A stretch of DNA of 34,520 nt from Bacteroidales bacterium (GTDB lineage Bacteria; Bacteroidota; Bacteroidia; Bacteroidales; PUMT01): contig SLCF01000150.1 in the NCBI GenBank assembly GCA_007125955.1, positions 1 through 34,520 of the forward strand, written 5' to 3'. Both the position numbers and the translations under genes were made by a program. Of this stretch, positions 1 through 18,515 are shown one piece after another; position 1 is the first letter of the stretch, and each line of letters opens with the position of its first letter. A model generated the notes under the pieces. That model did no database searches and had not been told where the DNA came from. It saw only the letters and a program-made list of their open reading frames with translations.

Positions 1-291
1 ACAATAGAAAAGTACTATGAAGTCCGGGAACAATTCCGGGAAATGGTTGCATTTTACAGAAAAAGAGACTTAAAGTCCGTAAGAAGCAGACCGGAAGAAG
101 AACCTGAAGAGCAGATATACGAAGATGCGGGATTCATAACCGAAAGGAATTTAGAATGGCTTCCGTTAATGATAGAGATGATCCATGAAAAACCTGTTTT
201 TTTTGCTTTCGGTGCAGCGCATCTGCCTGGCGAAGAAGGACTGGTTAATCTGTTAAGGGGAGAAGGATACAGGGTAGAGCCGGTATTTTAA
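1..291 (+). CDS. TraB/GumN family protein, C-terminal fragment (5' end outside window)
   Basis: The reading frame is open from base 1, so the gene begins upstream and only about the last 96 residues are visible. The C-terminus has the pattern of TraB/GumN (PrgY-like) proteins: an NxxW stretch in a helix (ERNLEW), then a strand ending in FGAAHLPGEEGL, then a leucine-rich helix and GYRVEPVF. In this family the conserved GxxH near the C-terminus is thought to be part of a metal-dependent, Tiki-like peptidase site; that role is family knowledge and is not shown here. The stop codon overlaps the stop of the convergent FISUMP gene by four bases, so there is no room for a terminator between them. 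The first ATG in the window (43) is internal. Confidence 0.8.
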   Translation, partial: TIEKYYEVREQFREMVAFYRKRDLKSVRSRPEEEPEEQIYEDAGFITERNLEWLPLMIEMIHEKPVFFAFGAAHLPGEEGLVNLLRGEGYRVEPVF

Positions 292-995
292 TCTTCTTTG
301 ATACACCTTACATAAGCACCCGTGCTTTTGCTGTAAACACCTTCGTGCATATAGGAGTACTCGTTGCAGAAACTTCTGAAATAGGCGTAACCGTCCGGAA
401 AACCGAGTGAAGTCCAATAATCCCCGAATTTCCTGATGTTATAAAATGTTCCGTTACTGTGCCTGTAACCGCCGGGCAGTGCCGAAAAACCTGTTTCATC
501 TGTAGCCCCTTCATTTGGCCTCATCCAACGAAGGGATGTTGCTTTAAGTTTACCTCCTGCCTCCTCACGGCCGCCAAGGTAACGTGACAATTCCCGCCAG
601 TCATAATCATCAGGTATCCGCCAGCCTTCAGGACATAATCCTCTCTCATCATTAACAGCATGCCAGTTATAAAGGGCACCGTAAACACGTCCGAAATACC
701 AGAAATTCCTGTAGTAACTGTATGCCCCCTCTTTCATCTCTTCCCATTCCTGATTGTTTGTTATACTGGGTATGGGGTCACCGTTCCTGTAATGCGTAAC
801 ATTCAGGTTATCAGCCATCCAAACCTGATTTCCTATTTGAACAGTTTCATATGAAGTCCCGTTTACATCAACTATTTCTCCGGTGTCTCCGGAATTATTC
901 AGCAAAACGGCATTCAGCAGTCCATCCATAAAAATCTGCTGCTGTATTAAAACGAAAAATAGTACAGGAATTATAGTTATTTTGATTATCTCCAT
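288..995 (-). CDS. FISUMP-domain protein (Fibrobacter succinogenes major paralogous domain)
   Basis: This 235-residue protein is almost entirely one FISUMP domain (about residues 42-233). Recognisable landmarks are QIGNQVWMADNL (53-64), NWHAV (110-114), CPEGWRIP (121-128), the glycine-rich LPGGYR (173-178) and VRCIKE at the end. FISUMP domains are common in exported Bacteroidota and Fibrobacterota proteins; their biochemical function is not established. The N-terminus (IPVLFFVLI, about 9-17) is hydrophobic and could be a signal anchor, but there is no clear cleavage site or lipobox. The protein is probably outside the cytoplasm. Its ATG is well separated from the M28 gene upstream (211 bases). 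I saw no consensus promoter. The identification is strong; the function is unknown. Confidence 0.85.
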   Translation of the reverse strand: MEIIKITIIPVLFFVLIQQQIFMDGLLNAVLLNNSGDTGEIVDVNGTSYETVQIGNQVWMADNLNVTHYRNGDPIPSITNNQEWEEMKEGAYSYYRNFWYFGRVYGALYNWHAVNDERGLCPEGWRIPDDYDWRELSRYLGGREEAGGKLKATSLRWMRPNEGATDETGFSALPGGYRHSNGTFYNIRKFGDYWTSLGFPDGYAYFRSFCNEYSYMHEGVYSKSTGAYVRCIKED

Positions 996-5128: not shown

Positions 5129-7039
5129 TCAGTTTTCAGAATCCACCAACCTGCCTGCCGGTTTGTAGACTTTTATCCAATCTATATCAAATGAGACGGG
5201 CAGATTGTTTTCAATAGCATTTCCTGTTATCCCCGAGCTGAGAATCATATACATCGGTTCACTAAAAGCTGAAATCCGTTCTTTCTTAACAATCATGTTG
5301 TTTATCTTCCATATAATTTCATCAGGCGTCCACTCCAGTCTGAAAATATAAAAACCCTTAGAGAAATCTACTCCTTTTATAACACTTTCGCTGTTTTTCA
5401 AATTGTCAGAGCCGGGTTTTTCCTGCCAGAATCCTCCCATGTTTACCTGTTTACTTTTATCACCAGAAAACCTGAAAACATTCAGGTGGGGGACCATTTT
5501 CCCCTGAACCATCCAGAAAGCATGATAAACAGAAGGTGAAGCATTAAGTTTTACTTTAGCTTCGAATGCTCCGTATTTTTGCCAAAGGCTTTCTCCTGTA
5601 TTTATCATTGCCGAGGTAAAATCAAAATCTTTTTGAAAAAAGCCAATAGAAGGATCCCACGCTTTACCCGTCACTTTTTCCTTTTTTGTATAAAGCTTCA
5701 ATATTCCGTTTTTTATCTCAAAATTTTTGTCCACTGTAAAGTAGTGAGGGTCGCTGGCAAGCGAGTAACTGTCATTTAAAAGGTTCTTGCCCCAGAAATA
5801 AGTTGTAAGCCATTTTTCCGGGTTAAGTCCGGTTGAATTGAAATTATCAGAGAAAACAAGCTCCCATTTTTTGATTTCATCAAATTTAGATGATTCCTTA
5901 AGTTTAAAGTACCATTTTATTTTTCTGGATTTTTTCAGTTGCTCATATTCAACTAGCTGCTGGTATTCAGGGGATTTTTTAAATTTATCGCGCGATTTCA
6001 TGTGCTTCTCGAGCTCTTTGAACTCATCTGACTGAACATACTTTTCCAGTTCGAGGAATTCTTTAATTTTATCGGAATTGTCAAGCTGCCTGTAATATTC
6101 GTAATCCTTTGATTCTTTAAGTTTGAAATATTTTTTGTATTTACTGCTTTTTTTAAGGTTTTTATACTCTTTTTCCTTATGCAGTGCTGCAGCTTTTTCT
6201 ATTTCAAATTTATTCTTTTCCGCTTCATAATCACCTGATGTTATAAATTTCTCAAGTTTTTCATATTCCTTGATCTCCGCCGAGTCTGCAAGTATTTTAT
6301 AATTTGCAAAAGCCTTTGATGAAACCAGCTTAAAATAGGCTTTTATTTTGGGGTCTTTTTTAAGATGAATATATTCCTCGTATTTCCGGTTATCCTCCGT
6401 TTGTTTGAATTCTGAAGCAGACATCACCTTTTTCTTTGCCTGGAAATCACTTGAATTAATAAACATTTCAAGTTCCCTGAACCCTGCAAGTTTTTCACTG
6501 TTTTCCGTTTCCCTGAAATCATCAAAATCCTGAGAAGATCTTATTGTAAAATAGTCATTAATGTCCGGTGACTTTTTAATCTTTTTGTATTCCTTAAATT
6601 TTTCATAAGCTTCGGTATCCTCGAATTTCATTTTTTTAATGCGCCTGAATTCTCCGGATTGGACGTATTGCTCAAGTTCCTGAAACTTTTTTATATCATC
6701 AGAGGCTTCAATTTTGGTGAAATTCCCGAAGAAGGGATTTGAGATAAATCTGAAATATCCGGCAACAGGTTTTGATTTTTTCAGCTCCCTGTAAGCCATA
6801 AGTTTATCATAGGCTTCCGTGTCGCTGAATTTCCTGTTGTTGATCTCTTTCTTTTTTTCCCTGAATTCCCGGGAATTGATTAATTCATCAAGTTCCATGA
6901 ACCTCGCAGGTTCTCCGGTCTGTTCGTACTCGAGTAATTTTTCATACTCTTTTCTTATCCTGTTTTCTCTTTCCTCAACTTTTGTTGTTCCCGGCAGGAA
7001 TCCGGTTTTTGCTTTTAGTCTGAACCTGAGCTTTAACAT
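5129..7039 (-). CDS. Five-repeat helical protein with C-terminal GH16-like domain lacking catalytic acids
   Basis: 636 residues in two parts. Residues 47 to about 392 hold five tandem copies of a unit of about 70 residues starting at 47, 119, 187, 259 and 328. Each begins with a pattern like F-x-E-L-E-x-Y-V-x-S and carries a later L-K-K-S...Y-F motif (at 83, 151, 223, 292 and 365). They are rich in Lys and Glu and probably helical. Residues about 392-626 resemble a GH16 beta-sandwich: LVFSDNF, GLNPEKW, YGAFEAKVKL, AFWMV, LEWTPDEIIWKIN and FDIDWIKVY. The GH16 active-site pattern E-x-D-x-x-E is replaced by H518-x-N520-x-x-R523, so glycosidase activity is unlikely and a carbohydrate-binding or structural role is more plausible. 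There is no signal peptide, which is odd for a GH16 relative. It is divergent from the unknown gene at 7333. Automatic annotation as a glycosidase would mislead. Confidence 0.75.
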   Translation of the reverse strand: MLKLRFRLKAKTGFLPGTTKVEERENRIRKEYEKLLEYEQTGEPARFMELDELINSREFREKKKEINNRKFSDTEAYDKLMAYRELKKSKPVAGYFRFISNPFFGNFTKIEASDDIKKFQELEQYVQSGEFRRIKKMKFEDTEAYEKFKEYKKIKKSPDINDYFTIRSSQDFDDFRETENSEKLAGFRELEMFINSSDFQAKKKVMSASEFKQTEDNRKYEEYIHLKKDPKIKAYFKLVSSKAFANYKILADSAEIKEYEKLEKFITSGDYEAEKNKFEIEKAAALHKEKEYKNLKKSSKYKKYFKLKESKDYEYYRQLDNSDKIKEFLELEKYVQSDEFKELEKHMKSRDKFKKSPEYQQLVEYEQLKKSRKIKWYFKLKESSKFDEIKKWELVFSDNFNSTGLNPEKWLTTYFWGKNLLNDSYSLASDPHYFTVDKNFEIKNGILKLYTKKEKVTGKAWDPSIGFFQKDFDFTSAMINTGESLWQKYGAFEAKVKLNASPSVYHAFWMVQGKMVPHLNVFRFSGDKSKQVNMGGFWQEKPGSDNLKNSESVIKGVDFSKGFYIFRLEWTPDEIIWKINNMIVKKERISAFSEPMYMILSSGITGNAIENNLPVSFDIDWIKVYKPAGRLVDSEN

Positions 7040-7332: not shown

Positions 7333-8196
7333 ATGGATCGTCAAAGCACATTGGAGGCCTGCCATTTTCTTGACAAGACTGAAACGGCAATGCTTGGTGG
7401 CCAGGGAGAGTTTTACCCCGTATATATATCCGTTAGCAGTGGAATAAAAAATATTTCTGTACTGAGCCGCATCGGTCACTTTATGAGACCCTACATGAGT
7501 GATATAGAGTCTCTGGTGGATAAAGATCTTTCCTCATCAGGATTGATGATAGAAGGATTTTTAACTGAGGGCTTGATGAAGCGTGCAAAAACTGAACAGG
7601 TTTTTCCCCTCACATCTTTGCTTGAACAGGAACTTGAGATAATAAAAAAGGCTGCTTTGCGTGAAATAGAGCTAAACGGAGAACTGACTGATAACAATTT
7701 TGCCTGGTCTTATGCAAGATATAGCTCAGATATTGCAGAGATACTTGACAGGATGATAAAAAAGGAATTTTTTAAAGAACTTGAGCAGGTTTTCGAAAAA
7801 TATGTAAATTCTGATAGTGATCAGAAAGCTTATAAGATCGCCAATTATTTCATTCATTACATTAACTGGAATAATTCCTTTAAAGATATTTATGAAAGGA
7901 GTTTCGAAATAATGCCCGATGATATAAAGCATATTGAAAAATATTTTTCACCCTCACTTTCAGCTGCTGTAAGGGCTTATCTTGCTTTATTGCCCAGTCT
8001 GAATATTCTAAGACAGGCATATTCATCCCGCAATGATGGCAAAATAACTAATTTAACATATATCGACTGGATCGGTAAGATACGAAACGTTGCCTGTGAA
8101 ATATTTATCAGATATTACGGGGAGAGGCAAGGTACAGAGTATCTTGATCGCCTTGATGATCTTCTGGAAAAAGATAATGCAAAAGACATTGCTTAA
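7333..8196 (+). CDS. Hypothetical protein, unknown function
   Basis: 287 residues that I do not recognise. The frame is uninterrupted and composition and codon use resemble the neighbours, so I take it as a real gene. No signal peptide, membrane segment or metal motif is evident; it is probably a soluble cytoplasmic protein, helical from about residue 85 onward, with several aromatic-rich helices (IANYFIHYINW, about 176-186). The N-terminal 60 residues contain a possible small strand region (FYPVYISVSS). The ATG at 7333 is the first in frame after an AT-rich 293-base spacer shared with the divergent repeat/GH16-like gene, which hints at shared control. It ends 16 bases before the stop of the convergent histidine kinase. 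Confidence 0.65.
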   Translation: MDRQSTLEACHFLDKTETAMLGGQGEFYPVYISVSSGIKNISVLSRIGHFMRPYMSDIESLVDKDLSSSGLMIEGFLTEGLMKRAKTEQVFPLTSLLEQELEIIKKAALREIELNGELTDNNFAWSYARYSSDIAEILDRMIKKEFFKELEQVFEKYVNSDSDQKAYKIANYFIHYINWNNSFKDIYERSFEIMPDDIKHIEKYFSPSLSAAVRAYLALLPSLNILRQAYSSRNDGKITNLTYIDWIGKIRNVACEIFIRYYGERQGTEYLDRLDDLLEKDNAKDIA

Positions 8197-11628: not shown

Positions 11629-13101
11629 TTAACGGGTGTTGTATTCAGCTTCCCGTTTTTTAGCTTCCTCCAGCCATACAGGTAAAGTGTCACGCAGAAA
11701 CCGCTCCTTTTCAGCCCTTATCTCAGCCATGTCAAGTCCCAGGTATTCCTGCGCCTTTTCTTTTGTAGAGATATCAGGCATTTCTATTGGTTGTGACACA
11801 TTATACTTTGCAAATATTCTTGAAAGCAGTACGCGTGCTTCCTGTGCTTTTTGTATTGAGGTGCCGAGGACTCTCAGGGCTTCTGTGGGTGAATGGAAAC
11901 CCATACTGTTGGCTGCCGCAACCCAGTCCCATCTCCACTGAGAATGGCGAATGAGCTGAAGAATGGGCTCCATTTCCTCTTCAGCAGCCCCGGCATCCCA
12001 TGCTGCTTTTGCTTCTATATGGAGCCTTGCAAGGTTTTGTTCAGCAATACCTCTCATTTCACTAACTTTATTCTGGCGGTCGTAAACAATCTGGCGGAGT
12101 TTTTCTTCACCCTCTCTGTGGCACACCTGGCATGAACCTTCGATATTGCTTAGCGGGCTGGTCAGATGGTGATTTGTAAATTTCAGACCGCCCTCCCTTT
12201 TATAAGGCATATGGCAATCTGCGCATGAAACACCTCTTTCCGCATGTATACCCGTCATATAAAGCTCATAATCGGGGTGTTGGGTTTTAAGCATCGGTGC
12301 ACGGCTAAGTGAATGTGTCCAGTCTGCAAATTCATAATTATCGAAATATGTTTCCATTTCATCTGCCGAGAATCCTTCATCCCACGGAAAGATAAGGTAG
12401 TTTTCTTCACCGAAGTAATACTCAACATGGCATTGCGCACAAACAAGTGAGCGCATTTCCTGATGGGTAGCTTTGTTTATATCATCTCCCCGGCGCTGGA
12501 ATGCCTCTATAAGCGCCGGTCTGGTAATACGAAGGTTCATTGTTTCGGGGTCGTGGCAATCCTGGCAGCCTATGGGATTCACTATCTGACTTCCCATTTC
12601 GCTCCAGCTCGAGCTGTAAAATTCACCGATACCGATCTCAGCCATTACCCTCGGCACATCAGTGCTTTTACATGTCCAGCAAGTGGCCGGCTGGGGCTGA
12701 ACTGTCCTGAGAGTATTATGTACATCCGTAACAGAATAATAATGGCCCCTGCCCTGGTTATAATCACGTGCAAAAGCATAACCTGCCCACATAATAACCA
12801 GTTCCGGGTATTTTTCAAGGTAATCTATCATGACCGATCCGTAGTACTGACTTTCGAAAGTAGTGTCAAGCGTTTCAAGGTAAGATTCATACTGGCGGGG
12901 AAAATTTTGTCCCCACACTTCATTTCTCGGTTCCCATTCCGAAATGGGTTCTACCATTTGAAAGTACAGCTGGGCTTCGGTTCTCCGTTCTACAATCGAT
13001 GCTGCAAAAAGACCCAAAATAAAAACCACTGCAACGGTTCCAAAAAACAGTACCCAGCTTATCCAGGGTTTTTTTTCCGTTAGTTCTCGGATGCTTTTCA
13101 T
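11629..13101 (-). CDS. nrfA: Cytochrome c nitrite reductase, catalytic subunit (ammonia-forming)
   Basis: 490 residues with the five heme sites of NrfA. The catalytic heme uses the special CWTCK (141-145), and the other four are CQDCH (179), CAQCH (221), CADCH (293) and CQVCH (324). Active-site residues are visible: R112 in ARDYN, Y228 in VEYYF, and H275 in KTQHP, where K272 and Q274 match the calcium-site pattern. It performs the six-electron reduction of nitrite (and NO or hydroxylamine) to ammonium on the periplasmic face. An N-terminal hydrophobic segment (14-35) may be an uncleaved anchor. It is preceded by nrfH with a 54-base gap and shares its promoter. It is followed by a terminator. 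The length and motif set are normal. Confidence 0.98.
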   Translation of the reverse strand: MKSIRELTEKKPWISWVLFFGTVAVVFILGLFAASIVERRTEAQLYFQMVEPISEWEPRNEVWGQNFPRQYESYLETLDTTFESQYYGSVMIDYLEKYPELVIMWAGYAFARDYNQGRGHYYSVTDVHNTLRTVQPQPATCWTCKSTDVPRVMAEIGIGEFYSSSWSEMGSQIVNPIGCQDCHDPETMNLRITRPALIEAFQRRGDDINKATHQEMRSLVCAQCHVEYYFGEENYLIFPWDEGFSADEMETYFDNYEFADWTHSLSRAPMLKTQHPDYELYMTGIHAERGVSCADCHMPYKREGGLKFTNHHLTSPLSNIEGSCQVCHREGEEKLRQIVYDRQNKVSEMRGIAEQNLARLHIEAKAAWDAGAAEEEMEPILQLIRHSQWRWDWVAAANSMGFHSPTEALRVLGTSIQKAQEARVLLSRIFAKYNVSQPIEMPDISTKEKAQEYLGLDMAEIRAEKERFLRDTLPVWLEEAKKREAEYNTR

Positions 13102-13155
13102 TTTCGGGGATTTTAGTTATTTACTCAATATTAAATTTTTCTGTTTTTTAAAGGG

Positions 13156-13746
13156 CTATTCATTATCACCTGATGTTATGCGTTCAAGCCATTTTGGGGT
13201 GAGCGAAGGGAGTCTCGGGACAAGGGAAAAAGGTGCTGAAGAAAGGCTCCTGACTGTTCCGTGGGGAACTTCCCTGTGGCAGTCCCAGCAGCGGTGTCCG
13301 TCCCCTTTGGCATGTCCCCTTCCTGTAACCTCAACAATGCGTGTTGTTTCAACAAGTTCAACATGACACCTGATACAGTTTTCCTGTACAACATTGATAC
13401 CGGCAGGCTTTATCTCAATAACCTGCGGTTCGGCCCTTGCAGTGAATATTGTAGCATGACGCATACCGTCTTTGGCCTTGAAATAATATTTCCTTACGAA
13501 ATTGTCATGGGGGACATGACAGTCAGCGCAATTTGCGGCTTCACGGTGACTGCTTTTGGACCAGGAGGCGTACTGGGGATACATTACATGGCAGTTGATA
13601 CAGGTTTCCGGGCGGTCAGATATATATGAATGAGCTTCCGAAGCATGAACTACCAATATTAGAATTCCGGTTAGAATTCCGAGAAGAACAACCACAACCG
13701 GCTGCCATTTAGGCGGTGGTGCCAGTTTTTTGAATATTCTTTTCAT
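13156..13746 (-). CDS. nrfH: Cytochrome c nitrite reductase, membrane quinol-oxidising subunit
   Basis: 196 residues from the ATG at 13746. One membrane helix (16-34) is followed by four CxxCH heme sites: CINCH (49), CADCH (73), CIRCH (124) and CWDCH (153), the NapC/NirT/NrfH pattern. It passes electrons from menaquinol to NrfA. The frame stays open to a TTG at 13788, but I choose the ATG. It gives the usual short NrfH N-terminus (basic stretch, PPPKW, then the helix), and the TTG lies right next to the candidate promoter at 13791-13823, where transcription would begin at or after it. It is first in the nrfHA operon. Confidence 0.95.
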   Translation of the reverse strand: MKRIFKKLAPPPKWQPVVVVLLGILTGILILVVHASEAHSYISDRPETCINCHVMYPQYASWSKSSHREAANCADCHVPHDNFVRKYYFKAKDGMRHATIFTARAEPQVIEIKPAGINVVQENCIRCHVELVETTRIVEVTGRGHAKGDGHRCWDCHREVPHGTVRSLSSAPFSLVPRLPSLTPKWLERITSGDNE

Positions 13747-13790
13747 ATCTGGAATATTGGCTAATCTGTACCTGAAAACCGGTTTCAATT

Positions 13791-13823
13791 CAAAAGTAAA
13801 GAAAAATTTTTAAATCTGACAAA
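13791..13823 (-). promoter_or_regulatory. Candidate Bacteroidota promoter for nrfHA
   Basis: On the minus strand TTTG (13820-13823) is followed after 21 bases by TACTTTTG (13791-13798), a full match to the -33/-7 consensus. Transcription would start near 13784, about 38 bases before the nrfH ATG. Confidence 0.6.
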
Positions 13824-13874
13824 AAAACAGTTCGCATTTTGAAAATATTAAAGAGCGGTTCACTGCAGCATTAT

Positions 13875-14216
13875 CTATTCTTTTATCATTGTCAGAACCA
13901 TTTTGAATTTTCCGGGGGCCCTTACTGCATGTGGTATATTTGCCGGCATAATTATAGATTCGCCCTGGCTGAGATTGTAAGTTTTTTCTTCAATGGTTAT
14001 AATTGCTTCACCTTCTGTAATATTTACCAATGCATCAAAGGGAGCGGTATGTTCGCTCAGCCCTTCACCTTTGTCAAAAGCAAAAAGGGTTATATTTCCA
14101 CCGCTTCTCTTTAAGATGTTTTTGCTTACTATACCACCCTTGGCATAATTTATCTCATTGTTGAAGATGAAAATCTCAGATTTTTTAAATTCCTTTTGTT
14201 GTGTCATCTCTTTCAT
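13875..14216 (-). CDS. Small cupin-domain protein next to hcp
   Basis: 113 residues from the ATG at 14216 (a second ATG follows at 14207; a GTG at 14285 would add residues that overlap the intercistronic hairpin, so I reject it). The single cupin barrel is recognisable from GEGLSEHTAPFDALVNITEG, LSQGESIIMPANIPHAV and the hydrophobic C-terminal strand. Possible metal ligands are the histidines in SEHTAP and IPHAV; the usual second histidine and glutamate of motif 1 are not obvious. The substrate is unknown. It lies just downstream of hcp on the same strand, and cupins of this size are often found beside hcp in anaerobes, so a role in nitrosative or oxidative stress is plausible but unproven. 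Confidence 0.85.
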   Translation of the reverse strand: MKEMTQQKEFKKSEIFIFNNEINYAKGGIVSKNILKRSGGNITLFAFDKGEGLSEHTAPFDALVNITEGEAIITIEEKTYNLSQGESIIMPANIPHAVRAPGKFKMVLTMIKE

Positions 14217-14260
14217 TTTAAGTGTAATATCTTTTTTTTCTGAAATTAAGGGGCAGGTAT

Positions 14261-14292
14261 AATTCCGGTGCCCTGAGAAGGGCACTGGAATT
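14261..14292 (-). other. Strong intercistronic hairpin between hcp and cupin gene
   Basis: A 13-bp stem with one G·T pair (arms 14261-14273 and 14280-14292) and a 6-base loop, 11 bases beyond the hcp stop. No U-tract follows on either strand. It may act as an RNA-stability element or a weak terminator between hcp and the cupin gene. Confidence 0.6.
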
Positions 14293-14302
14293 ATTTCAGG
14301 AT

Positions 14303-15958
14303 TTAGCTGAGAAACATTTTAAGGTCTTCTTCCACGTCAGTAATTCCTCCGATTCCGAATTTCTCTATCAGCACATTTGCAACATTTGGAGAGAGAAATG
14401 CAGGCAGGGTGGGGCCAAGGTGGATGTTCCTGACTCCAAGTGAAAGGAGAGCCAGCAGTACAATTACCGCTTTCTGTTCGTACCATGCTATATTGTAAGC
14501 AATAGGCAGTTCATTGATATCGTTTAGTTTGAATATCTCCTTGAGCTTTAGTGCAATCACGGCAAGAGAGTATGAGTCATTGCACTGTCCTGCGTCAAGC
14601 ACCCTCGGTATACCTCCAATATCGCCAAGGGGAAGCTTGTTGTAGCGGTATTTCGCACAACCGGCTGTAAGTATTATGGTATCTTCAGGCAGTTTGCCTG
14701 CAAAGTCTGTGTAATATTCTCGGTCTTTCATCCTGCCGTCGCATCCGGCCATTACAAAGAATTTTTTTATTGCCCCCGATTTGACTGCATCAACAACCTT
14801 GTCAGCCAAAGCAAATACCTGGGCATGTGCAAAACCACCTACTATCTCCCCGTTTTCAATCTCAACCGGCGGATCGCATTTTTTTGCATGCTCAATTATT
14901 TGCGAGAAATCTTTTTCCCCTCCTTCTTTTCTTGGCGGAATATGGGGGAATTCCTCAAATCCGGCAGATCCTGTGGTATATACCCTCTCCCTGTATGTTG
15001 CTTTTTTGGACGGGGGGACAATGCAGTTTGTTGTAAAGAGTACAGGACCGTTAAATGTTTCAAAATCTTCTTTTTGTTTCCACCATGAGCTGCCGTAATT
15101 TCCTGTGAAATGGCTGTACTTTTTGAATGCTGGATAATAGTGAGCCGGCAGCATTTCGCTGTGAGTGTAAACATCAACTCCGGTGCCTTCAGTTTGTTTC
15201 AACAACTCTTCAATATCTTTAAGGTCATGTCCGCTGATGAGGATACCGGGTTTATTTCGCACACCGGTTCTGACCTTTGTGAGTTCCGGATTGCCGTATG
15301 CAGATGTATTTGCCTTGTCAAGTAAAGCCATTGCTTTAACCCCGAAATTACCGGTTTCAAGTACAAGGGATGTAAGCTCCTCTGCGCTGAGATCATCTCT
15401 TGTTAAAGCAACAAGTGTATCCTGAATAAATTCATGAATGGATTTGTCATTGTATCCCAGGTTCATGGCATGCTCAGTGTAAGCAGCCATACCTTTCAGT
15501 CCGTATGTGATAAGTTCCCGCAAAGAGCGTATATCTTCGTTTTCAGTTGACATTACCCCTACTGAGGCAGCTTTTTCATCGTATTCTTCCGCAGATGAAG
15601 GATTCCATGTTGCAGATTCGTGCAGATTACCCTTTTTTTCAATTCCACCTGCATTTTCAATCTTTTTTCTGAGCCGGTTGCGTATTTCCAGTCCTTTGCT
15701 TACCAGTTCAATAAAAACATTTCTGTCAAAGTTGGTGTTTGTAACTGTTGCAAATAAACCGTTTATAATGAAACTATCAACCCCGGGCTCTTCAATTTCT
15801 TTTTTCACTGCCTCCCTGTTGTAAACGGATATTCCCTTTATTACAAAAACAAGAAGATCCTGGAGGTTTGCAACATCATCTGTTTTACCGCATACTCCTT
15901 TGATAGTGCAACCTGTTCCTTTCGCAGCTTCCTGGCACTGATAACAAAACATGTTCAT
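14303..15958 (-). CDS. hcp: Hybrid cluster protein (hydroxylamine / NO reductase)
   Basis: 551 residues. The N-terminal cysteines C5, C8, C17 and C23 (C-x2-C-x8-C-x5-C) fit the [4Fe-4S]-binding form found in anaerobes. All ligands of the hybrid 4Fe-2O-2S cluster are present: H244, E268, C312, C406, C434, C459 and E494. To my recollection these coincide with the numbering of the Desulfovibrio vulgaris protein. Hcp is a cytoplasmic enzyme described as reducing hydroxylamine to ammonia and, in other studies, NO to N2O; it is linked to nitrosative stress and protein S-nitrosylation. It sits between the DUF1360 gene and the cupin gene on the same strand. Its 305-base upstream region contains a 16-base palindrome (16067-16082) of CRP/FNR spacing, a candidate operator. 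Reduction would need a donor, for which the ferredoxin-like protein nearby is a candidate. Confidence 0.97.
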
Positions 15959-16263
15959 AGTTTTAAATTTTTTAAATGGTTATTAATGGTTAACTAAATT
16001 GATCAGAAAACAGATATTAAGCAAGACGCTTCTGAATAATTTTCAACATTTCTATATAAAGCAAAAAGGTAATAATTTACCTAAATATCGGCAAAAAAAT
16101 TTTTAGATAAGTAACACTTTCCCTGTTTTTAGATCATTCATAATCCCCCTTTTGCATAATCTTATTACGTAACGTTTGTTCCGTATTAATGTTTATTGTC
16201 TGATATTGGTTTAATTTTTAATGTAATTTTTGATTTTCAGGTATTCATGATTATTATATTCTT
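15959..16263. other. Upstream region of hcp
   Basis: 305 AT-rich bases between hcp and the DUF1360 gene. It contains the palindrome at 16067-16082, an AAGT-N3-ACTT inverted repeat (16109-16119) and TTACGTAA (16165-16172). I found no consensus -7 element for the minus strand, consistent with an activator-dependent promoter, and no small gene. Confidence 0.5.
16067..16082. promoter_or_regulatory. Palindromic operator candidate upstream of hcp
   Basis: AGGTAA, four bases (TAAT), TTACCT: a perfect 6+4+6 inverted repeat about 110 bases before the hcp ATG. The 5-N4-5 geometry is that of CRP/FNR-family sites, although the half-site differs from FNR's TTGAT. HcpR, a CRP/FNR-family regulator of hcp in other bacteria, would be the obvious binder, but no such gene is in the window. 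Confidence 0.4.
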
Positions 16264-16758
16264 TCAATAACCTGGTTTCTGATTGTCTCCGTCATCTTTA
16301 TCTTTTTTCTTTTTCAAATCAAATTGTTTTTCATCCGCCTTCAGTCCGATAAAATTAACTGAAAGCTGAAATAAAGTTGCAATACCTGCTATCGCCATTA
16401 ATGTTACAAAAATATCCCCGAAGGGAATGAGGAAATATACAGTTGTATTAAAAAGTGCTATCCATACACCCGCACACCAGGGGCATGTAACTATTGCCTT
16501 AAGTGAATCACCAAATCCTGTTCCTTCCATTAAACGGATCATATCCCTTATCAGCTTGAAAACCCTGTCGTATACGAGCATTCGTGTCATCCTGTATGTG
16601 GAAATAGCAATCAGGAGAAACTCAAAAGCTGTTATATTCCTGATATCAACTCCCGCATCTATCAATAAGGTTCCTGCTAAAACAACTAAAGCAATAAATA
16701 CAAACGTAGAAACTATATTCCACCATTTTTCAGCTTGTGTAGGTTTAGGCAACTTCAT
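16264..16758 (-). CDS. DUF1360 small membrane protein
   Basis: 164 residues with about four hydrophobic segments (15-34, 44-56, 93-115, 117-138) and a charged, lysine-rich C-terminal tail that should be cytoplasmic. DUF1360 landmarks are STYRMTRMLVYDRVFK (about 53-68) and the conserved TCPWCAGVW, where C92 and C95 form a CxxC at the start of a membrane helix. The function of DUF1360 is unknown; a relative occurs among Bacillus sporulation genes. The CxxC could bind a metal or be redox-active, but nothing here proves it. It lies between the ferredoxin-like gene and hcp, all on one strand, which suggests but does not show a link with nitrosative stress. Confidence 0.85.
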   Translation of the reverse strand: MKLPKPTQAEKWWNIVSTFVFIALVVLAGTLLIDAGVDIRNITAFEFLLIAISTYRMTRMLVYDRVFKLIRDMIRLMEGTGFGDSLKAIVTCPWCAGVWIALFNTTVYFLIPFGDIFVTLMAIAGIATLFQLSVNFIGLKADEKQFDLKKKKDKDDGDNQKPGY

Positions 16759-16785
16759 TATTCTTTATTTTGCATGTCTCTGATG

Positions 16786-16825
16786 TGCCGGCAGAATGAA
16801 CACTTATTAAGCTTTTCTGCTGGCA
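16786..16825 (-). other. Hairpin between ferredoxin-like and DUF1360 genes
   Basis: An 11-bp stem with one G·T pair (TGCCGGCAGAA, 16786-16796, with 16815-16825) and an 18-base loop, 36 bases past the ferredoxin-like stop. It has no U-tract, like the hairpin after hcp. Confidence 0.5.
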
Positions 16826-16861
16826 TTACTTATATTTTTGCTTAAAAATAATAAAAATATA

Positions 16862-17785
16862 TCAAATCCATTCCTCTTTCAGCATATTCCCCCTTATACC
16901 CAGTATAACCTGTTTTATGGGGATTTTTCGCGAGGCCTTTTGAACAGCCGACCTGGCGAGTTGTAACAAACCTCCGCAACATGGAACCTCCATTATCATT
17001 ACGGTTAAAGTGTTAATTTTTGCCTTGTCGATCAGATCTATCAGTTTTTCAAAATAGATATCCATATTGCTGTCCAGTTTTGGGCATGCAATTGCAAGTG
17101 ATTTGCTTTTCAGGTGTAAGGAGTGAAAATCACCCGCCGCAAATGCTGTACAGTCAGCTGCCAGCAGCATATCACTTCCCTTGAAATGAGATGCAGCGGG
17201 GTTAATAAGATGCATTTGTACAGGCCACTGTTCAAGTGCGGATGGAAAAGGCCGTACGCTTCCGGTATCAGCTTTTGATGTTGTTTTGCCAAATGACATT
17301 GAAAGTGATCCGGGGCAACCTTTATGCTCATTACTATTACCTTCTCTTAACCCTGAACCGGAGACACCATTTTTTATGCTTCCTTCGTCTTCTTTGCTTT
17401 TATTGCAAACCTTTTCTATAACCTTTTCTACAGAAAAACCTATATTATTTTTGTTTTTCCTGAGGTATTCCAGAGCTTCCTTTAAATAACCCGTCTCATT
17501 ATGCTCGCTCAGGTGCATTAAATGGGCTGTAACCACATTTTTTCCCTTGACAGCCATTTCCCTTATAACCTTGATCTCATCGTATGGTTCGGCTTCCCTT
17601 TCCTCTATTTCAAGTGCCCCTTCCGGACAATGACCAATACATGCTCCAAGTCCGTCGCACATAAGTTCACTTACAAGCCGGGCTTTGCCGTCTATTATCT
17701 GCAAAGCGCCTTCATGGCAGTTCGGAATGCAAAGTCCGCAACCGTTGCATTTTTCATCGTCAATTTTTATAATCTCTCTCTTCAT
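16862..17785 (-). CDS. Ferredoxin-like Fe-S protein of an hcp-associated family
   Basis: 307 residues. The N-terminal ferredoxin fold has a complete first [4Fe-4S] motif (C13, C16, C19, C23). The second motif is CDGLGACIGHCP with C43, C49 and C53, where the usual second cysteine is Leu46. From memory this DGLGAC form is normal for the family, so cluster II may be [3Fe-4S], absent, or use another ligand. The large C-terminal domain has conserved-looking landmarks GCPGS (156-160), EQWPVQ (185-190), AADCTAF (209-215), ACPKLD (233-238) and MEVPCCGG (265-272), with the double cysteine C269-C270. Family members often accompany hcp and are annotated only as ferredoxins; an electron-transfer or redox-sensing role is inferred. 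A low-complexity linker (about 126-175) separates the parts. A good promoter candidate lies at 17898-17929. Confidence 0.85.
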   Translation of the reverse strand: MKREIIKIDDEKCNGCGLCIPNCHEGALQIIDGKARLVSELMCDGLGACIGHCPEGALEIEEREAEPYDEIKVIREMAVKGKNVVTAHLMHLSEHNETGYLKEALEYLRKNKNNIGFSVEKVIEKVCNKSKEDEGSIKNGVSGSGLREGNSNEHKGCPGSLSMSFGKTTSKADTGSVRPFPSALEQWPVQMHLINPAASHFKGSDMLLAADCTAFAAGDFHSLHLKSKSLAIACPKLDSNMDIYFEKLIDLIDKAKINTLTVMIMEVPCCGGLLQLARSAVQKASRKIPIKQVILGIRGNMLKEEWI

Positions 17786-18116
17786 TCGTATATTATTTAT
17801 ATTATTAAATTTCCTGTACTAAAGGGATGATAAACCAAATTATTCATTAATAATTCACTTAAAGTAAAACAAAAAAGTAATAAAGTAATGAAATACGCAA
17901 ATATATAAAATAGCTTTTATTTCAGCAAATTGTCCAAGGATATTTTTTTCGGTTAATTAAATGGTGTAAGTGCCTGAAAACAGTATGAGAATTTAACTGT
18001 GCAGACACTTTTTAGGATTACCAGAAGAGAATCCAATGTTCAGCAGTTTTGAAGGATAGTCAGATTATTTACAGTTGACCTGAAATAATCATCTGTTTAA
18101 AAAGATAAAAAAAGCT
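17786..18116. other. Upstream region of the ferredoxin-like gene
   Basis: 331 AT-rich bases between the Rrf2 gene and the ferredoxin-like gene. They hold a consensus promoter (17898-17929) and, downstream of its start point, three direct AAGTA repeats (17862-17866, 17875-17879, 17883-17887). I found no gene or clear terminator for the Rrf2 gene. Confidence 0.5.
17898..17929 (-). promoter_or_regulatory. Candidate Bacteroidota promoter for the ferredoxin-like gene
   Basis: On the minus strand TTTG (17926-17929), 20 bases, then TATATTTG (17898-17905): a full match to TTTG / TAnnTTTG. The leader would be about 105 bases long. Confidence 0.6.
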
Positions 18117-18515
18117 TCAGATGTAGAGGTTAAGTGTCTGCTTTTCAAGATGTGTTTTGAATTCCACGGTCATTTTGTTTGTAACATTGTTCATGATACA
18201 CTTGTCAAACGGACATATTGGCTTGCTAAGAGGGCATGGGGAAATTTCAATATCTCCCTCGATAGATTCATAAATATTGAGGAATGAAATTTCTGCAGGA
18301 TTTTTTTTTAGTGTAAAGCCCCCGTTTGGTCCCCGCTGTGAATTTAGGTAATTGCTCTTGGCAAGACGCTGCATTATTTTAGCAACATGATGCCTGGAAG
18401 CACCCGTTTCTTCTGCAATATATTGCACACTTACCGGGAGTTCTGACCTTGCAATCAGAATCATACCATGCAGTGCAATTGATGCGGCCTCTGAAATTGC
18501 TACTATTTTTGACAT
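18117..18515 (-). CDS. Rrf2-family transcriptional regulator with Fe-S-type cysteines
   Basis: 132 residues with the Rrf2 winged-helix: VQYIAEETGASRHHVAKIMQ (30-49) is the helix-turn-helix and RGPNGGFTL (61-69) the wing. Three cysteines near the dimerisation helix (C94, C101, C106) sit as in NsrR and IscR, which use three cysteines to hold an Fe-S cluster. The spacing here is C-x6-C-x4-C rather than C-x5-C-x5-C. An NO-sensing, NsrR-like repressor is the natural guess because the genes transcribed after it include hcp and nrfHA, but RsrR- or IscR-like roles cannot be excluded. An AAGTA-N6-TACTT inverted repeat just upstream (18527-18542) is a candidate self-operator. Confidence 0.88.
   Translation of the reverse strand: MSKIVAISEAASIALHGMILIARSELPVSVQYIAEETGASRHHVAKIMQRLAKSNYLNSQRGPNGGFTLKKNPAEISFLNIYESIEGDIEISPCPLSKPICPFDKCIMNNVTNKMTVEFKTHLEKQTLNLYI

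Follow-up and report, generated by a model that had tools for sequence, protein, structure and literature searches.

A predicted GH16 pseudoenzyme of Bacteroidales fused to an undescribed family of helical repeats

The window, that is, the whole stretch of 34,520 nucleotides analysed here (contig SLCF01000150.1 of a Bacteroidales bacterium), was found to carry a gene whose product is predicted to be a GH16 pseudoenzyme fused to an undescribed repeat family. The open reading frame is located at 5129..7039 (stop codon included), as the sequence-only reading of this DNA had it; it lies on the minus strand, begins with ATG and encodes 636 aa. In the model that we propose, and to which we give about an even chance, the product would work inside the cell as a non-enzymatic tether or scaffold with two ends and a helical spacer that can be adjusted. 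According to this proposal, a conserved N-terminal motif would dock on one partner, either the membrane or a protein, and an all-alpha array of repeats, variable in its length, would serve as the spacer. The GH16-derived beta-sandwich, which presumably goes back to a single recruitment of a laminarinase-type enzyme and no longer has its catalytic residues or most of those that bound substrate, would then form a head that binds a second partner; for this partner, a protein or an unfamiliar ligand is more probable than beta-glucan.

Five Lys/Glu-rich units of about 70 residues had been proposed to start at residues 47, 119, 187, 259 and 328. A repeat HMM built from these five units and iterated over the homologues returned identical starts with E-values from 1e-17 to 5e-25. 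On the minus strand, the array consists of repeat 1 (residues 47-118 with linker, 6686..6901; HMM match 47-116, E 4.8e-23), repeat 2 (residues 119-186, 6482..6685; 119-184, E 5.3e-23), repeat 3 (residues 187-258, 6266..6481; 187-256, E 8.8e-24), repeat 4 (residues 259-327, 6059..6265; 259-325, E 1.1e-17) and the conserved, domain-proximal repeat 5 (residues 328-393, 5861..6058; 328-393, E 5.1e-25). The region is indeed rich in Lys and Glu (19.7% and 13.6% of residues 47-392, respectively). The pairwise repeat scores exceed those of composition-preserving shuffles by 5.5 to 16.5 SD, and therefore the repeat is not an artefact of this composition. Its consensus is FEELEKYVNSQEFKEKKKSLEKKKFKKTEEYKKLQEYKELKKSKKIKAYFKLKNSKKFKEFKKLENSKEL. 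AlphaFold2 predicted an all-helical array (block pLDDT mostly 80-93) with about five short helices per unit, which tend to begin at conserved Ser/Thr positions, and with a last helix (residues 384-391) that is followed immediately by strand one of the GH16-derived domain.

No significant match to the repeat was obtained in Pfam, NCBIfam or the PDB. When 32 repeat units were scanned against Pfam, the best hit had an E-value of 0.0059 to an unrelated family, and no family recurred. The known repeat families in Pfam, including TPR, HEAT, FF and spectrin, were rejected since none gave a significant profile match. FF-domain arrays such as those of PRP40 and p190RhoGAP are likewise made of short helical repeats; their matches were non-significant (PDB E 1.0, Pfam E 0.05), and we claim no homology. 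In a viral structure library, mostly GH16/ConA-like jelly-roll or unnamed entries were matched, and the helical part had no clear match. Literature searches returned no description of the repeat. As far as these searches show, both the repeat family and the architecture are undescribed, which agrees with the earlier statement that no described family with such an architecture was known to the reader.

The array is followed by a GH16-derived beta-jelly-roll domain (residues 392-628; 5156..5866, minus strand), which is supported by Pfam, PDB sequence matches and Foldseek and starts at about residues 388-392, directly continuing the last helix. Pfam PF00722 matched residues 441-621 (E 1.9e-9), and the score of 37.7 bits, well over the cut-off of 22, places the domain within the GH16 fold by homology, whereas the motif E-x-D-x-x-E (or E-x-D-x-E) is not present. 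Using phmmer, laminarinases of Thermotoga (E 2e-11) and Pyrococcus were aligned to residues 386-627 with E-values of 2e-11 to 6e-11, and a family profile searched against PDB sequences retrieved 2vy0 at E 7e-18. An AlphaFold2 model of the domain from 8 sequences was of moderate confidence (mean pLDDT 71, pTM 0.75); Foldseek matched it to the laminarinase 4dfs (E 5e-15), with laminarinases at a TM of about 0.66. Thus, Pfam, phmmer and Foldseek agree on the C-terminal GH16-like beta-sandwich that had been recognised from the letters. The NCBIfam model of EglC (NF052454) matched the domain in part (residues 393-625), and its 77 bits are far under the 700-bit cut-off.

Sequence alignments to TmLam and ULam111 both revealed that E-x-D-x-x-E is replaced by H518-L-N520-V-F-R523 (5471..5488, minus strand), with H518 at the site of the nucleophile Glu, N520 at that of the Asp and R523 at that of the acid/base Glu. 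The loss of all three acids, as claimed before, was thereby borne out. Among the 78 family members in which the motif columns are present, the complete loss is a local extreme rather than the family rule, being shared by 13 members including the 636-aa protein. The family pattern is H/Q/E - D/N - K/R, with H, Q or E at the nucleophile position and K or R at the acid/base position in 62 of the 78. Inspection of the homologues for these residues, which the sequence-only reading had called for, revealed that no member (0/78) has both catalytic Glu together and that E-D-E is equally absent (0/78). The idea of intact acids elsewhere in the GH16 fold was rejected because the two Glu never co-occur across the family. 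In six divergent members, L061, L116 (f14), L068, L140 (f72), L125 (f42) and L145 (f159), Asp or Glu is found at the acid/base position; their triads read MSD, VSD, QTE, RNE, HNE and HQE, never with the nucleophile Glu alongside. Judged from these alignments, the GH16 domain is probably catalytically dead family-wide.

Residues 1-46 (6902..7039, minus strand) comprise a basic start (LKLRFRLKAK) followed by G-F-L-P-G-T-T-K-V-E at residues 13-22. In the family alignment, the motif G-x-x-P-x-T-x-K-x-E lies within the first ~25 residues (G in 84%, P in 85%, T in 86% and E in 99%) and is preceded by hydrophobic and basic residues. No family member has a lipobox, and the median of the best 12-residue hydropathy is 0.92 in the family versus 2.78 in its GH16 paralogues. 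We infer a cytoplasmic location because a lipobox is lacking and the hydropathy is far below that of the paralogue signal peptides. Since an in-frame stop lies 8 codons upstream of the ATG, there is no hidden longer N-terminus with a signal peptide, and an upstream start bearing one was rejected. The earlier observation that the 636-aa protein has no signal peptide therefore holds for it and extends to the family.

As a control, 20 ordinary GH16 loci of the order were collected together with the only other GH16 gene of the window's own genome (G000:C125:7245-7793). These yielded 21 ORFs whose matched stretch contains E-[IL]-D-x-x-E, most of the control ORFs having Sec or lipoprotein-type N-termini; one control match (L156_6) has no motif in its matched stretch. 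The own-genome gene (L173), whose frame of 370 aa contains EIDIME and has an N-terminus of lipoprotein type with ...LIACDSEN, appears to encode an ordinary exported GH16. Such same-genome paralogues, which retain the motif and export signals, speak against the notion that the repeat protein is still a glycosidase acting via other residues or is exported by an unrecognised route. That notion could appeal to the 13 members that keep the nucleophile Glu, the 4 that keep the acid/base Glu and the 59 that keep the Asp (D120 equivalent), but with no member holding both Glu and with K/R so prevalent at the acid/base position, we consider it very improbable.

The substrate-binding site of ULam111 is formed by Asn33, Gly37, Asn38, Arg71, Trp98, Trp102, Trp113 and Phe212 and additionally by Glu118, Asp120, Glu123 and His137 (PMC5595797). 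These residues were mapped onto the family via profile alignment. The results showed that the Arg71 equivalent is L/I/M, the Trp98 equivalent is Y/T/H/F and others, the Trp113-bearing loop is deleted, W predominates at the His137 position, and the stretch of the +1 subsite is shorter and has lost its aromatic. The Trp102 equivalent (W509), which is W in 70 of 80 members, is the only clearly kept cleft residue and the sole one retained among Arg71, Trp98, Trp102, Trp113 and His137. In addition, the family has a loop inserted relative to laminarinases, G458-K-A-W461-D-P-S-I-G466-F467 (5639..5668, minus strand), whose pattern G-x-x-W-x4-G-F is nearly invariant (W461, G466 and F467 at 98%; W461 in 78/80). 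The ancestral cleft thus appears to have been dismantled and something new fixed. Compared with the GH16_3 laminarinases (TmLam 3azx, ULam111 5wut and Pyrococcus 2vy0), which have the same fold and are clearly homologous in sequence along the entire domain, the family has neither the E-D-E triad nor most of the cleft residues nor the Trp113 loop, and it gains the extra loop and the helical-repeat fusion and has no signal peptide.

These changes bear on the alternative that the protein is an intracellular lectin, in which the dead GH16 domain binds beta-glucan or another glycan and the repeats display or multimerise it. Noncatalytic GH16 binding proteins do exist (PMC6827312), the Trp102 equivalent is kept, and the new conserved aromatics W461 and W538 (47/80) could form the lining of a remodelled cleft. 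Nevertheless, the loss extends beyond the acids to Arg71, Trp98, Trp113, His137 and the +1 aromatic, and no polysaccharide-utilisation genes stand out among the recurrent neighbours of the family. Moreover, we know of no cytoplasmic beta-glucan in these bacteria. Since most of the sugar-contact residues of laminarinases are lost, other readings suit the protein better than a canonical beta-glucan lectin, and we regard the lectin as rather unlikely. The cleft loss speaks against the simple retention of a beta-glucan lectin and would be compatible with a new ligand, while the kept Trp102 and D120 equivalents may leave room for residual ligand binding. A repurposed sugar-binding or structural scaffold had been suggested for this protein; the scaffold part is supported by our analysis, whereas the sugar-binding part is weakened by the loss of cleft residues together with the acids. 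A structural, protein-binding or new-ligand scaffold thus seems to fit better than a retained beta-glucan lectin.

A homologue search of 99 related genomes detected the protein in every sampled genome of the window's own family (f1) and, elsewhere in the order, in some 20 further families. With the repeat profile, it was found in 95 of 393 genomes of the order, representing 55 of 206 genera and 31 families. Outside the order, the repeat was not found in the roughly 390 genomes sampled from the same phylum; in this phylum sample of 395 genomes, nearly all from outside the order, the sole match was the window's own genome. The relatives include Bacteroidota/Bacteroidales metagenome-assembled genomes such as B1Sed10_220R1 and the CSSed isolates, labels that we take to denote soda-lake sediments.

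From these genomes, 81 loci were extracted besides the window. The same GH16-derived domain ends all 79 intact repeat ORFs examined, and the domain, shortened by a frame break in two cases, is present in each repeat ORF that is not truncated at a contig end. The order of N-terminal region, repeats and domain is constant. The repeat number by HMM ranges from 1 to 9, most commonly 3 (37 proteins) and 5 (26). The last repeats best match the last repeats of other families in 79 of 79 cases, i.e., they are orthologous, and many middle repeats are closest to another repeat of the same protein, with up to 94% identity. These data point to fixed ends with a variable middle, in which the middle repeats probably expand by tandem duplication. 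In the nine-repeat members L110 (G595) and L124 (G744) of family f143, the middle repeats share 88-94% identity, which points to tandem expansion in the recent past. At L067:2962-4047 (G059), a 362-aa frame has the domain and no repeat by HMM in the ~125 residues preceding it, possibly a minimal form.

A maximum-likelihood tree was built from 47 domains of the family and, from the same order, 19 ordinary GH16 domains. The family forms one clade with 100/99 support (the bootstrap was not fully settled); its best PDB matches are laminarinases, yet the clade stands apart from the sampled GH16s of the order. One recruitment followed by one catalytic loss is the simplest reading.

The identity between the 636-aa protein and its orthologues ranges from 74% to about 30%. 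Against the closest relative, dN is 0.15 and dS about 2.6, and the resulting dN/dS of about 0.06 is approximate because dS is saturated; dN is similar for the repeats and the GH16-derived domain. The gene is under purifying selection. Split copies occur in two genomes, G015 (L007/L033/L070) and G056 (L025/L059), each with two overlapping frames within the GH16 domain, which may reflect either true frameshifts or errors made in assembling the metagenome bins. They are what a decaying pseudogene or an annotation artefact might look like, but the intact ORFs in about 30 families, the low dN/dS and the conserved frame refute this explanation family-wide and leave it a practically negligible probability.

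In the window's own family, the gene lies downstream of a PAS hybrid histidine kinase gene and nrfHA and is convergent with an AbgT-type transporter gene. No conserved operon was found, the kinase, nrfHA and AbgT-type neighbours not being conserved outside this family; the gene thus seems to stand alone. Neighbours that recur across families are atpDC, lepA and a probable fmt/purN-type gene (identified by first residues only), on varying sides and strands, as well as large-family histidine kinases and response regulators. An operon-based function was rejected, given that the neighbours are conserved only in the own family and that the recurrent ones elsewhere are housekeeping genes and these histidine kinases and response regulators. 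The genomic neighbours, whose inspection had been suggested, were conserved within the own family and not across families. Anti-phage defence or phage origin was also rejected: PADLOC gave no match, and PHROG gave only one of unknown function at E 0.016 over the GH16 domain. Elsewhere in the window, 11629-18515 encodes NrfA-/NrfH-like multihaem cytochromes, a small cupin-like protein and a prismane/hydroxylamine reductase-family (Hcp) protein, with a ferredoxin-like protein and an Rrf2-family regulator close by, and looks like a nitrite/nitrosative-stress cluster. The protein encoded at 288-995 (minus strand) contains a Fib_succ_major domain (PF09603), and its N-terminus resembles a signal peptide.

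A divergent neighbour at 7333..8196 on the plus strand encodes a 287-aa protein without significant Pfam or NCBIfam match, which we treat as a candidate partner or regulator only. Of the 393 genomes sampled from the order, 17 have it, and 15 of these also have the repeat gene (hypergeometric P 2e-8 at the genome level; about 2e-3 to 5e-5 at the family level, depending on the assumed family number); it is divergently adjacent to the repeat gene in two families, the second being f38 (L051). The 287-aa gene is found without the repeat gene in G573 (97% complete) and G559, and most genomes with the repeat gene lack it; therefore, it is an accessory partner at most. More tentatively than for the scaffold itself, we suggest an undescribed Bacteroidales intracellular tether or ruler in which the repeat copy number may set the spacing between N-terminal motif and head, possibly with the 287-aa protein.

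The basic character of the 636-aa protein (pI 9.2; net charge of the repeats +13), the family median pI of 9.05 and the basic N-terminal start would also suit Lys-rich helical repeats that bind nucleic acid or the membrane on its inner face, with the GH16 domain as a structural cap only. However, the family pI spans 5.2 to 9.7, Lys is nearly balanced by Glu, and the repeats match no nucleic-acid-binding family. In addition, conservation lies in the domain and the last repeat, and the middle repeats differ in both number and sequence. We consider this explanation improbable and favour the two-ended tether or scaffold.

Insect beta-GRP/GNBP are secreted immune proteins, from which the present family differs as one bacterial clade without an export signal. 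These noncatalytic GH16_4 proteins likewise have mutated catalytic residues and were reused beyond hydrolysis; they are held to bind beta-glucan or other glycan, and the noncatalytic GH16_4 proteins are metazoan or fungal, with a catalytic loss that is not monophyletic (PMC6827312). Outside this metazoan/fungal subfamily, catalytic loss is rare in GH16, and Viborg et al. found the catalytic residues lost in only 0.7% of GH16_3 members (PMC6827312).

GH16 is a large and heavily studied enzyme family, and automatic annotation pipelines would be expected to call the proteins described here glycosyl hydrolases. A bacterial clade without catalysis and export signal, joined to a new helical repeat, would represent a clear enzyme-to-scaffold conversion. 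With a function that is unstudied according to our searches, this conserved gene offers a tractable target; the same design is found in about one quarter of the sampled genomes of the order, and therefore it looks like a conserved, uncharacterised scaffold protein.
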